NCBI GenBank assembly: GCA_947168825.1
Contig: CAMVNH010000003.1
Span: 37,180-101,179, forward strand
Source of the DNA: an uncultured Candidatus Saccharibacteria bacterium
Lineage (GTDB): Bacteria > Patescibacteriota > Saccharimonadia > Saccharimonadales > Saccharimonadaceae
Length of the DNA stretch: 64,000 nt
Direction: 5' to 3'
The first letter of the stretch is position 1, and the number at the start of each line of letters is the position of its first letter. A model generated the notes under the pieces. The model did not search any database and was not told the origin of the DNA. It saw nothing but the letters and a program-made list of their open reading frames with translations. A program made the translations under genes and the position numbers. Positions 53,483-64,000 of the stretch are shown here, one piece after another.

Positions 53483-55963
53483 ATGCAAGACGAATTTAAC
53501 GAAATTATGAGTCATCTTTCTGAAAATGCACGTTTTGCAATTCAGAAATCTGACTTTTTCGCGAAAACTTATAATAATGGCTATATGGGGACTGAGCACC
53601 TGATGATGGGTATTCTCGATCAGGATACTTCCACTGGCGCCAGAATCTTGAGGGATGAAGGAGTAGACCTAAAAGAGGTTGAAAAAAGTTTAGGACGTCC
53701 AGCCCAAGAAGTTAAGCAGGATGCCTCGATGGCTATGATGTCACTTTCCGAGGCTACGGTTTTAACTTTGCGTATGGCTGCAAACTATGCCCAGGAACAG
53801 GGTAGCGACGTAGTTGGGACCGAGCATATTCTTTATGCCATCGTGATGCAGCCTAGCTCTAGAGCCGTTGCTATTTTAAAACACTTAAAGGTGGATATCG
53901 CCGAGTTGATTAGTCAGATTGACAGGCTAATAGAGGAACAGACCAGCGCCGCAAAAAACGAGGCAGAAAGACAAAAATACATCAGTCGACCGAAATTGAA
54001 GTGGCTTTCCCGATATGGCCAAGATTTGACCAATATGGCCAAAGCTGGCAAATTAGACACAGTTATCGGTCGTGACGCCGAAATCGAGCGCACGATTACC
54101 GTACTTTGTCGTCGTACAAAATCGAACCCAGTCTTAATTGGTGAAGCCGGCGTCGGCAAAACTGCGATTGTCGAAGGTCTAGCTAGTCGCATTGCTAAAA
54201 ACGAGGTCCCCGGCCTCCTGATAGATAAGCATATTTATCAGATCGATCTTTCTGCTATGGTTGCTGGAACGAAGTTTCGAGGTGAATTTGAAGAGCGTAT
54301 TAAAGGCGTCATCGATGAAGCTATGGAAAATCCAGAAGTTATCCTCTTTATCGACGAGCTACATCTCCTCGCTGGCGCTGGATCTTCCGAAGGTACTATG
54401 GATGCGGCGAACATTTTGAAACCCGCTCTTGCTCGTGGTCAAATCCACCTCATTGGCGCTACTACTCTCGACGAATATCGTAAAAACATTGAAAAAGATA
54501 AGGCCCTCTCGCGTCGTTTCCAGACTGTTATGGTCGAGGAGCCAAGCCCGACCGTTACTTTGCGAATTCTAAAAGGCATCAAAAAACATTACGAGAGACA
54601 TCATGGCGTAGAAATTCCTGACGAGATTCTCGAAACCGCTATCAATATGTCTCGTCGCTACATTAATGATCGCTATATGCCGGACAAAGTTATCGATATT
54701 ATTGATGAAGCTTCCGCTATTGCCAAAGTTGCCGCCGACAAGAAAGACGGTGGAAAGTACAAAAAGCTAAAAATCGAAGAAAAATCTCTCGATGAAAAGG
54801 TTGTTGAGGCTGCTGAAGCGCAGGACTATGAAAAGGCTGCACTTTATAAAACTAATCTCGAAAAAGTTAAAAAAGAGTTAAAAAAGCTAGAAAAATCCGG
54901 CGCCGATAAAGAAGTTACGCCAAAGCTCACTGAAGAAAACTTAGCTAAGGCTGTTTCCTTAAAGACTGGTATCCCAGTTAGCAAAGTTCACGGTTCTGAA
55001 CTAGAATTACTTACCAAGCTCGAAGGTCATATCGATAAGGCTATCATTGGTCAAGATGAGGCGGTTCATGCCGTTGCGAAAGCTATTCGTCGCGGTCGTT
55101 CTGGTATTGCCAATCCGAATCGTCCGATTGGCTCCTTCCTCTTTATGGGACCAACTGGTGTCGGTAAAACCGAGCTCGCTCGTGTGATTGCGCGCGAGGT
55201 CTTCGGTGGCGAAAACGCACTCTTTAAGATTGACATGTCCGAGTTTGGCGAGAAACATAATGTTTCGCGCCTCGTTGGTGCTCCAGCTGGTTACGTTGGC
55301 TACGACGATGGCGGTAAACTTACTGAGGCGATTCGTCGCAGACCATACTCAGTTGTCTTGTTTGACGAAATCGAAAAAGCTCATCCAGACGTCTTTAACC
55401 TCCTTCTTCAGATTCTCGAAGACGGTGTCCTCACTGATGGCCAGGGAAACAAAATTAAATTCAATAACACGATTGTTATCCTAACTTCGAATCTCGGTTC
55501 CGAAGCCATGTACAATGAAGACAACTTTGGTTTTACCGCTAAAACCAAGCGCGACAAAAAAAACCGTGACGCCGAATATGCACTTCAGAAAGAAGCGGCT
55601 ATGCGCGCCTTAAAGAAGAATATGCGCCCAGAACTAATCAACCGTCTTGATGCTGTGCTCGTCTTTCACTCCCTAACCGAAAAACAGGTTGAGCAGATTT
55701 TTGACACTATGCTTGAAGATTTGAAGAAGCGCCTCGCGACTAAGTCTCTTGGCCTCAAAATCACACCGGAAGTCAAAAGGCATCTTATCAAAATCGGTTA
55801 CGATCCGAAAAACGGCGCTCGCCCACTTCGTCGCGCAATTGAAGACAATCTTGAAGCTCTAATTTCTGACGATATTATTTCTGGCAAACTAAAAGAAGGT
55901 GATATTATTACAGTCAAGCTATCAAGAAAAGGCGAGTTAGAATTAAGTGTCGGAAAGGAATAA
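53483..55963 (+). CDS. clpC: Clp protease ATPase subunit, ClpC type
   Basis: Clp-N repeats, [18 protein letters not shown]-like [37 protein letters not shown]. Confidence 0.9.
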
Positions 55964-61830: not shown

Positions 61831-61873
61831 AAAAACACTTGCATCAAAATTCTCAACGTACTATAATAAGCTT

Positions 61874-63862
61874 ATGATTTCTACGAGATATAACCTTGTC
61901 CACAGCCCTAGCATCAAACCTGTGCATAACTTTGCCGCTGGGGGGGGGCAACTATTAGCAACCTTTAAAGCTCTCGCAGTCTTCTTATTCGCCTTCACTA
62001 TCTCCTACCTCTCCTCTTCTCACTTCGCTCCCGTTACCCGTTCCGATGCCGCTGCCGGCACCTACTATGCCAACATTAGTAACTCCGGCAACATTAACCT
62101 CACATTAAACTCCACCCCAGACGGAGTCTACAAAGTAGGAAAAGACAGCCTCACTATTAGTACTAACACCACGCTAGGCTACAAGCTCTACGTCAGCACT
62201 ATAGACCATAGCGGTGATTCTCCAGCCCTCCCTAGCGCTACCCCGTCCAACGGGCTTATTAATGGTTCCAGTACAGGTTACTATCTCTCGCCTAGTACTG
62301 GAACCATTAATACGCCAGTTAGACTAGCTACCAACACTTGGGGCTACACCGTTAGCCGAGCTAACAGTACAGATACTAGCACTACCTACACTGATAACGA
62401 TGCCGCCCCTACAGAAGCCGCTGGCGGACAAGCAGTCTGGCGCGCCGTCCCAGAATACGGTACCGAAGACCTCTTCTACACTAATACCACCCCAGCTACT
62501 TCTAGCACTAATAGCGTAGACGTCTACTATGCCGTAAACGCCAGTACCGCTCTCCCAAGCGGCACCTATACTAATACCGTAGTCTACACTGCACTCGCCG
62601 AAGGAAACACCCCTAGTACTTCCTCTACCGACCCTACCATCTCCCCAACCTCCCAGAACGGTCTCTCTGCTGGACAAACTATCACAATTAACACTGGCCT
62701 CTACCCAGGTCTCTCTTCCCCTACCACATCCGAACTCTCTTCCTTCCTAGGTACTATTAGTGTTACTATCGGATCAAGTGCCTGTACCTCCCCTACCCCT
62801 AGCCTAGATAGCACTAACGGCAACCTCATCATCACTTGCTCTGCTCCTTCCCAATCCTCCTACACCACCTACAATGTCTCTATCTCTATCTCCAAGCTAG
62901 GTTACAGCAAGACCCTGACGAATGCGTATGAGTATATCAACCCAACCCCTGCTTTCTTCACCATTACCAAGATGCAACAAATGACCCATGATATTTGTAC
63001 CGATGCTAAGCTCCCTACCCCAGTTGCAAATGAAACCACTGCCCTTACCGCCTCTACTTGGGCTTCTGGTTCCCGTACCGGCATCCCAACCACCACCCTC
63101 CTAGACGATCGTGCTGGACAAGTATCCTACACAGTAAAGAAACTCGCAGATGGCAAATGCTGGATGACGGAGAACCTAGCTTTGCCTGCTGGAGCAGTCC
63201 TGACTGCATCTGATTCCGATCTTGATGGGACTGTGGTGTCCAGCTATACCATTCCATCTAGCAGAACCCCATTTGTAAACGACCCAGCCTACGATATCGA
63301 GGCTATGAACAGCGACTATACTAATACTACAAACGACCCAAGAGGCTACAAAACCGGCAACTACTACTCCTGGCGTACTGCTACCGCTGGTAATGGTAGA
63401 GGCTCAGAATCAAACGGAGCGCCAACTGATGCTTTCGGTAGACCTATGACAGCACAAAACATCAATACTCTCGTCTCCATCTGCCCTAAAGGCTGGCGTC
63501 TCCCAACATCAGGCGGTTACTCCACTACTGGCACTACCGACGTTACTACTCCAGGCTCTGCTACCAATCTCGTAAACGGAGACTTTGCCGCTCTTTACCA
63601 GGCTTATGGTGGTACAGGTACAGAAGGTTCAGACACCACTATGTACGCCCAGATGACCGGTACCTCGTATGGTCCTAATTTATCGCTCAGTGGCCTCATC
63701 AGCACCAGCGGTCGCCGCCTCGGGGGCGCCGGCAACTTCTGGTCTAGTACGGTGTACAATTACGCCTACGCGTATAACCTGCGCCTGGATACGTCGCGCG
63801 TCCTCCCGCAGAACTACAGCTACAAGTACACCGGATTTCCAGTCCGCTGCTTGGCTCGGTAG
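61874..63862 (+). CDS. Large secreted surface protein with C-terminal FISUMP/C-lectin-like domain
   Basis: Signal-like TM ATFKALAVFLFAFTISYLSS; GTYTNTVVYTAL; KLADGKCWMTENLALP...SICPKGWRLPT...NFWSSTVYNYAYAYNLRLDTSRVLPQNYSYKYTGFPVRCLAR. Confidence 0.8.
   Translation: MISTRYNLVHSPSIKPVHNFAAGGGQLLATFKALAVFLFAFTISYLSSSHFAPVTRSDAAAGTYYANISNSGNINLTLNSTPDGVYKVGKDSLTISTNTTLGYKLYVSTIDHSGDSPALPSATPSNGLINGSSTGYYLSPSTGTINTPVRLATNTWGYTVSRANSTDTSTTYTDNDAAPTEAAGGQAVWRAVPEYGTEDLFYTNTTPATSSTNSVDVYYAVNASTALPSGTYTNTVVYTALAEGNTPSTSSTDPTISPTSQNGLSAGQTITINTGLYPGLSSPTTSELSSFLGTISVTIGSSACTSPTPSLDSTNGNLIITCSAPSQSSYTTYNVSISISKLGYSKTLTNAYEYINPTPAFFTITKMQQMTHDICTDAKLPTPVANETTALTASTWASGSRTGIPTTTLLDDRAGQVSYTVKKLADGKCWMTENLALPAGAVLTASDSDLDGTVVSSYTIPSSRTPFVNDPAYDIEAMNSDYTNTTNDPRGYKTGNYYSWRTATAGNGRGSESNGAPTDAFGRPMTAQNINTLVSICPKGWRLPTSGGYSTTGTTDVTTPGSATNLVNGDFAALYQAYGGTGTEGSDTTMYAQMTGTSYGPNLSLSGLISTSGRRLGGAGNFWSSTVYNYAYAYNLRLDTSRVLPQNYSYKYTGFPVRCLAR
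61940..61948 (+). repeat. G9 homopolymer in coding sequence (candidate contingency tract)
   Basis: GCCGCT GGGGGGGGG CAACTATTAG. Confidence 0.9.
62257..62312. repeat. Perfect 18-bp inverted repeat, 20-nt spacer, within CDS
   Basis: TATTAATGGTTCCAGTAC (62257-62274) / GTACTGGAACCATTAATA (62295-62312). Confidence 0.9.
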
Positions 63863-64000
63863 TGCCCCCGCGCTTCGCAGCCTTGCCTCCCTTTGCGGCG
63901 ACGGAGCCGCCGCGGAATAAGGAAAAAGGGCGGCAAAAAGATATAGAAAGGAAGAGAAAATGTTGGTGGCAACCTGCACTCCTAGTGACCCATCTGCTTA

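Follow-up and report, generated by a model that had tools for sequence, protein, structure and literature searches.

A probable poly-G contingency locus with a putative DGR-targeted tip in a surface-protein gene of a Saccharibacterium

What might a pure run of nine guanines be doing within the first codons of a surface-protein gene of an episymbiotic Saccharibacterium, directly in front of the segment expected to export its product? The gene lies in the window analyzed here, a 64-kb stretch (G000:C3:37180-101179) of a draft genome of 578 kb that is 87% complete and distributed over 8 contigs; C3 is the contig of the window, and C1, C2, C4, and C8 are further contigs of the same source genome (G000), whose RadA is 78–83% identical to that of Candidatus Saccharibacteria sampled in the jejunum of roe deer and the ileum of sheep, which points to an origin in the Patescibacteria. 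A sequence-only reading of the window had proposed that slippage in the G9 run switches this 662-aa protein ON and OFF. Our analysis leads us to consider it very probable that the gene is indeed a simple-sequence contingency locus, in which a poly-G ON/OFF tract at the 5' end is combined with a probable DGR-target tip at the other.

The position given in that reading for the tract, just before a hydrophobic segment, is exact (table 1): the nine guanines form codons 23–25 of the protein, and the export segment QLLATFKALAVFLFAFTISYLSS begins immediately 3' of them. The tract is also as singular as had been claimed, no other G or C run of at least 6 being found in the 64-kb window, in which the longest A run is an A8 at 55556. 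In-silico translation likewise bears out the early stops announced for single-base slips: the frame is open at G9 (662 aa), as it also is at G12 (663 aa), and ends after 30 aa at G7, 27 aa at G8, 31 aa at G10, and 28 aa at G11. The loss or gain of a single G is enough to abolish the frame, and no downstream start rescues it, as in-frame ATG, GTG, or TTG codons are absent from the ~275 codons that follow the tract. On this ground, we reject a true start located 3' of the tract, which the sequence-only reading had itself named as a finding that would refute it. Moreover, only 6 nt separate the -10 TATAAT from the ATG at 61874, with a TAAAAT found at a similar distance from the ATG in the paralogues of C8 and C1; since the promoter ends so close to the ATG, translation very probably starts 5' of the tract, and the same promoter position suggests that the mRNA is nearly leaderless. 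With regard to the product, its family and position point to a possible role as an adhesin, in host recognition or in phage evasion, and a search for related loci among the named genomes confirmed no relatives of its N-terminal part.

Table 1. Features of the 662-aa gene and its surroundings (positions in the window)
Feature	Position	Strand	Basis or details
662-aa surface protein gene: MISTR start, poly-G, export segment, FISUMP C-terminal domain	61874..63862	+	ORF; PF09603, TIGR02145
G9 tract, proposed switch	61940..61948	+	ON: G9, G12; OFF: G7, G8, G10, G11
Hydrophobic export/anchor segment	61949..62011	+	Hydropathy 2.2, Kyte-Doolittle, 15-residue window
Promoter: -35 TTGCAT (61839-61844), 17-nt spacer, -10 TATAAT (61862-61867)	61839..61867	+	Read directly
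FISUMP (Fib_succ_major) domain	63152..63853	+	PF09603 E=1.8e-11; TIGR02145 E=2.4e-13
Probable DGR variable region, homologous to template repeat G000:C2:94559-94764(-)	63681..63882	+	28/36 substitutions at template adenines
GC-rich inverted repeat GCGGCGAC..GCCGCCGC, possible DGR stem-loop (putative function)	63895..63913	+	Common to C1 start, C4
Stretch 100% identical to C8 paralogue, 896 nt; possible recombination/conversion seam	61949..62844	+	Sequence comparison

At the scale of the source genome, the tract stands above the background of guanine runs. In 186 kb of sequence, the counts fall from 472 runs of length 4 to 94 of length 5, 12 of length 6, and 7 of length 7, and three runs of at least 9 are observed genome-wide when ~0.2–0.6 would be expected; the runs of at least 7 comprise seven G7, zero G8, and one each of G9, G10, and G12. 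These last three, the only G runs of at least 8 in the genome, occupy the equivalent position in three paralogues that all have the MISTR start and have ATGATTTC(C/T)AC(A/G)AGA and GCT-Gn in common. Read from the common ATG, both phases are represented: the C3 copy is ON with G9, the C8 copy is OFF with G10 (stop after 28 aa), and the C1 copy, which would be ON at G8 and G11, is OFF with G12 (stop after 26 aa). In the two OFF copies, the open frame 3' of the tract is unbroken over 582 aa (C8) and 661 aa (C1), which fits a reversible switch and not a decaying pseudogene. This polymorphism, seen between paralogues rather than between alleles of one locus, extends to near-identical copies, as the 896 nt that follow the tract are the same in C3 and C8, yet the tract is G9 in the former and G10 in the latter. 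Such a pattern sits poorly with the idea that the tract is stable in cells and merely encodes a glycine stretch of the N-terminal tail, for which one could invoke that GGG is a permitted run of residues and that the window copy is in frame at G9: two of the three copies are OFF despite intact downstream ORFs, G runs of at least 6 are otherwise rare in this genome, and there is no MutS, all of which renders a tract devoid of any switch role very improbable.

The relationship between C3 and C8 raises two further alternatives. Their identity starts at GCT-Gn (window 61934-62844), the ~55 nt located 5' of it, promoter and first codons included, being unlike, and C8 and C1 for their part have 35 bp around the start in common. 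An identity that starts at the tract could reflect a cassette exchange, and the comparison of the two copies would be consistent with a recent exchange whose seam lies at the tract, the one-base change in length having occurred afterwards or along with it, a chimeric assembly keeping some residual probability. The tract might then be mainly a homology seam through which surface-protein cassettes swap their 5' stubs, made up of the promoter and the first ~20 codons, changes in length being a by-product. While this would be compatible with a contingency locus, we hold it to be unlikely, as a G run of 9–12 bp is short for homologous exchange, as such tracts are found in promoters too, and as a single seam could equally stem from a chimeric assembly. 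Homopolymer lengths and the exact 896-nt repeat of C3 and C8 are, moreover, spots prone to assembly error, and the stop codon of the window gene lies 141 nt from the end of its contig. Considering that the source genome is a draft MAG with several paralogues at contig ends, and that each tract length is that of one assembled consensus, with one genome per species, it could be argued that the observed lengths are assembly or sequencing errors and that all copies are truly in frame and fixed, an argument on which the other genomes of the genus bear directly.

Indeed, runs of at least nine guanines were found in 69 of the 118 genomes of the genus, with a maximum of 15 per genome, and in 20 of 80 genomes sampled from the order. 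We classified 106 tracts of the genus, hand-picked from part of the matches in draft genomes and with start codons and export segments called heuristically: 30 occupy -35/-10 spacers, 28 are found close to an ORF start, and 48 belong to neither class and may be chance runs or mark unrecognized promoters. The promoter-spacer tracts are framed by near-consensus -35 and -10 elements, with spacers of 15–22 nt, and this position is far more frequent among the tracts (30/106) than among the G4-5 runs of the same loci (8/1243; Fisher p=3e-28), as is the position before an export segment (16/106 vs. 32/1243; Fisher p=2e-7). OFF frames concern 17 of the 28 ORF-start tracts against 66 of 262 controls (p=2e-4), those among the controls being wrong start calls. 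The comparison of tract lengths across related genomes, advocated in the sequence-only reading as a check, also reveals unequal tracts between paralogues with near-identical flanks in G098 (G9–G11), G102 (G9–G13), and G084 (G10–G11), as in the source genome. OFF and length-variant tracts thus recur at constrained positions in many independent assemblies, OFF frames are far rarer for shorter G runs of the same loci, and the 30 promoter-spacer tracts lie where frame has no bearing, which makes it very improbable that the lengths are errors. These promoter-spacer tracts probably represent a second, transcriptional class of switches. They also weigh against another scenario: long homopolymers are able to promote transcriptional slippage, and slippage of the RNA polymerase or of the ribosome on the tract could yield a constant in-frame fraction at any DNA length, hence tuning rather than switching. 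Because this would leave the tracts in the -35/-10 spacers of the same genus unexplained, we regard it as quite improbable.

Among the loci of the genus, L089, L092, L224, L249, L284, and L292 are examples in which a G9–G14 run lies between a -35 TTGACA and a TATAAT-like -10, in promoters of surface-protein and other genes. As for the proteins encoded 3' of the tracts, 15 of the 63 scanned are FISUMP proteins, and the others include LRR and InlB-like proteins as well as a T4SS pilin; most FISUMP homologues retrieved in relatives with an N-terminal query have no nearby tract. Two genomes from other genera of the order, G142 and G169, hold the unusually high numbers of 24 and 51 runs of at least nine guanines, respectively, possibly as a further tract-rich lineage or through an effect of composition.

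In the absence of mismatch repair, single-base slips in G9–G14 tracts are expected to be frequent, as is established for other bacteria. In this regard, MutS (MutS_V) was absent from all 25 genomes searched, the source genome included, when the control was present in 11 of 14, and Saccharibacteria have been reported to be devoid of both MutS and MutL (PMC8406219). The missing MutS gives a concrete ground for expecting high slippage rates in these tracts. Taken together, paralogue lengths, intact OFF frames, tract placement, and the lack of MutS agree at the sequence level with every testable prediction of the ON/OFF slippage first proposed for this locus.

Beyond what the sequence-only reading contained, the analysis brought to light, in addition to the G10 and G12 paralogues, the genus-wide tracts, and the promoter-spacer class, a probable DGR variable region at the C-terminal end of the protein. 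The last 60 codons of the window gene resemble two short antisense stretches of the source genome (C2:94559-94764 and C1:2190-2372), each adjoining an RT ORF with RVT_1, IGNLSSQ, and YVDD, in keeping with DGR-type RTs ([ILV]GxxxSQ, YxDD), and both RTs are encoded on contigs other than that of the window gene. The changes in the window variable region are strongly biased toward template adenines (28 of 36; hypergeometric p=4.5e-11); the 8 changes at other bases and a 3-nt gap suggest an old or chimeric/recombined target and no fresh product. The bias is also seen in the C2 target (21/21), the C4 copy (23/24), and the C1 copy (20/28). The C8 paralogue, which aligns poorly to either template, was rejected as a DGR target. 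A conserved GC-rich stretch with an inverted repeat (63863-63913) follows the variable region and is a candidate for the IMH and stem-loop of a DGR. The source genome holds two DGR cassettes, at G000:C2:90846-94764 (L036) and G000:C1:135-2372 (L039), which both comprise a target, cut at the contig start in the second case, an accessory ORF, an RT, and an antisense template. The accessory ORFs, 261–293 aa long and located 5' of the RTs, are candidates for an Avd-like protein, and those scanned had no match in NCBIfam and none above cut-off in Pfam. With respect to the C-type-lectin fold expected of a DGR target, the C-terminal part of the protein has a Fib_succ_major domain; a single-sequence AF2 model of the C-terminal 302 aa had a pLDDT of 29.4, and a sequence search of the PDB returned no relative.

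In two other species, all these components are gathered in a single locus, with a FISUMP target, an accessory ORF, an RT, and an antisense template: G019:C16 (L309) has a G13 tract and is ON (587 aa), and G091:C6 (L308) has a G12 tract and is OFF; template adenines account for 28 of the 32 changes in the former and for 14 of the 17 in the latter. This one-locus layout is the strongest sign of a recurring design, rather than of a coincidence in one genome, and, with switch and RT in the same locus, the switch may influence the expression of the RT too.

From the tract, its frames, the lengths of the paralogous tracts, and the mismatches between variable region and template, we infer how switching, display, and binding could be linked. 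Replication slippage would add or remove a G in the tract, unchecked because the lineage is without MutS, and each slip, located just 5' of the export segment, would close or restore the frame of the surface protein. ON cells would display a FISUMP-type protein with a DGR-targeted C-terminal tip, and the gene family would hence unite two mechanisms, stochastic ON/OFF switching at the 5' end and adenine-directed hypermutation at the 3' end, the purpose of which would probably be either a varied attachment to the bacterial host or an evasion of recognition by phages or by the host. On a broader level, it is likely that a MutS-less lineage of episymbiotic Saccharibacteria diversifies its surface in two layers: numerous surface genes would be under poly-G switches, located either in the coding frame or in a promoter spacer, and some of these genes would also have DGR tips, leaving to chance both whether an adhesin is shown and which version of it.

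Neisseria and Campylobacter provide the classic cases of poly-G phase variation (PMC3786947, PMC6321876). Like Neisseria hmbR/hpuA and Campylobacter jejuni surface genes, which have a pure G tract within the reading frame, ON/OFF switching by +/-1 frameshift, and several loci per genome (PMC3786947, PMC6321876, PMC4965091), the window gene has such a tract and is predicted to switch; unlike them, it belongs to a reduced-genome Saccharibacterium without MutS, is probably near-leaderless, and is probably also a DGR target. The promoter poly-G of Neisseria porA (PMC3639595) is comparable to the tracts found in the -35/-10 spacers of the genus, whereas the window gene has the coding-frame layout and not the promoter one. 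DGRs, for their part, are common in CPR bacteria, Fib_succ_major being among the domains that DGRs can target (PMC8144416, PMC4159848), and the source genome resembles the DGRs of Patescibacteria and gut bacteria by its IGNLSSQ and YVDD RT, antisense template, adenine-specific mismatches, and Fib_succ_major target (PMC8144416, PMC4159848); by contrast with known cellular DGRs, the window target has a putative 5' poly-G switch and is remote from both RTs. Finally, the PTD-repeat gene of a Gracilibacterium (PMC6851277) is likewise a CPR surface gene, whose hypervariation within a population was discussed along with slipped-strand mispairing, but it differs from the window gene by its 9-mer repeats, its synonymous variation, and the absence of ON/OFF switching.

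The sequence-only reading knew of no described phase variation in episymbiotic Patescibacteria, and our full-text searches, which covered non-subscription papers, returned no paper on it for Saccharibacteria, nor any in which a DGR target is switched by poly-G. In the papers searched, the coupling of an ON/OFF switch and targeted hypermutation in one gene was not found. If the proposed switching is true, phase variation reaches bacteria of ultra-small size living on bacterial hosts, where selective pressure would be exerted by the host cell and by phages instead of chiefly by an immune system, and the apparently broken state of such genes in assembled genomes would be accounted for. It also yields a testable statement on how Saccharibacteria could change or keep hosts.

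With regard to the promoter layout, we considered and rejected the possibility that poly-G in promoter spacers is unique to Saccharibacteria: among the matches listed, it is widespread, mostly in gut Clostridia and Bacilli. Several of these loci, such as L128 (Streptobacillus notomytis), L147, L161, L177, and others from gut Clostridia and Bacilli, have two promoter-spacer poly-G sites per 8-kb stretch, and such paired sites suggest that some host-associated bacteria have large sets of promoters of this type.
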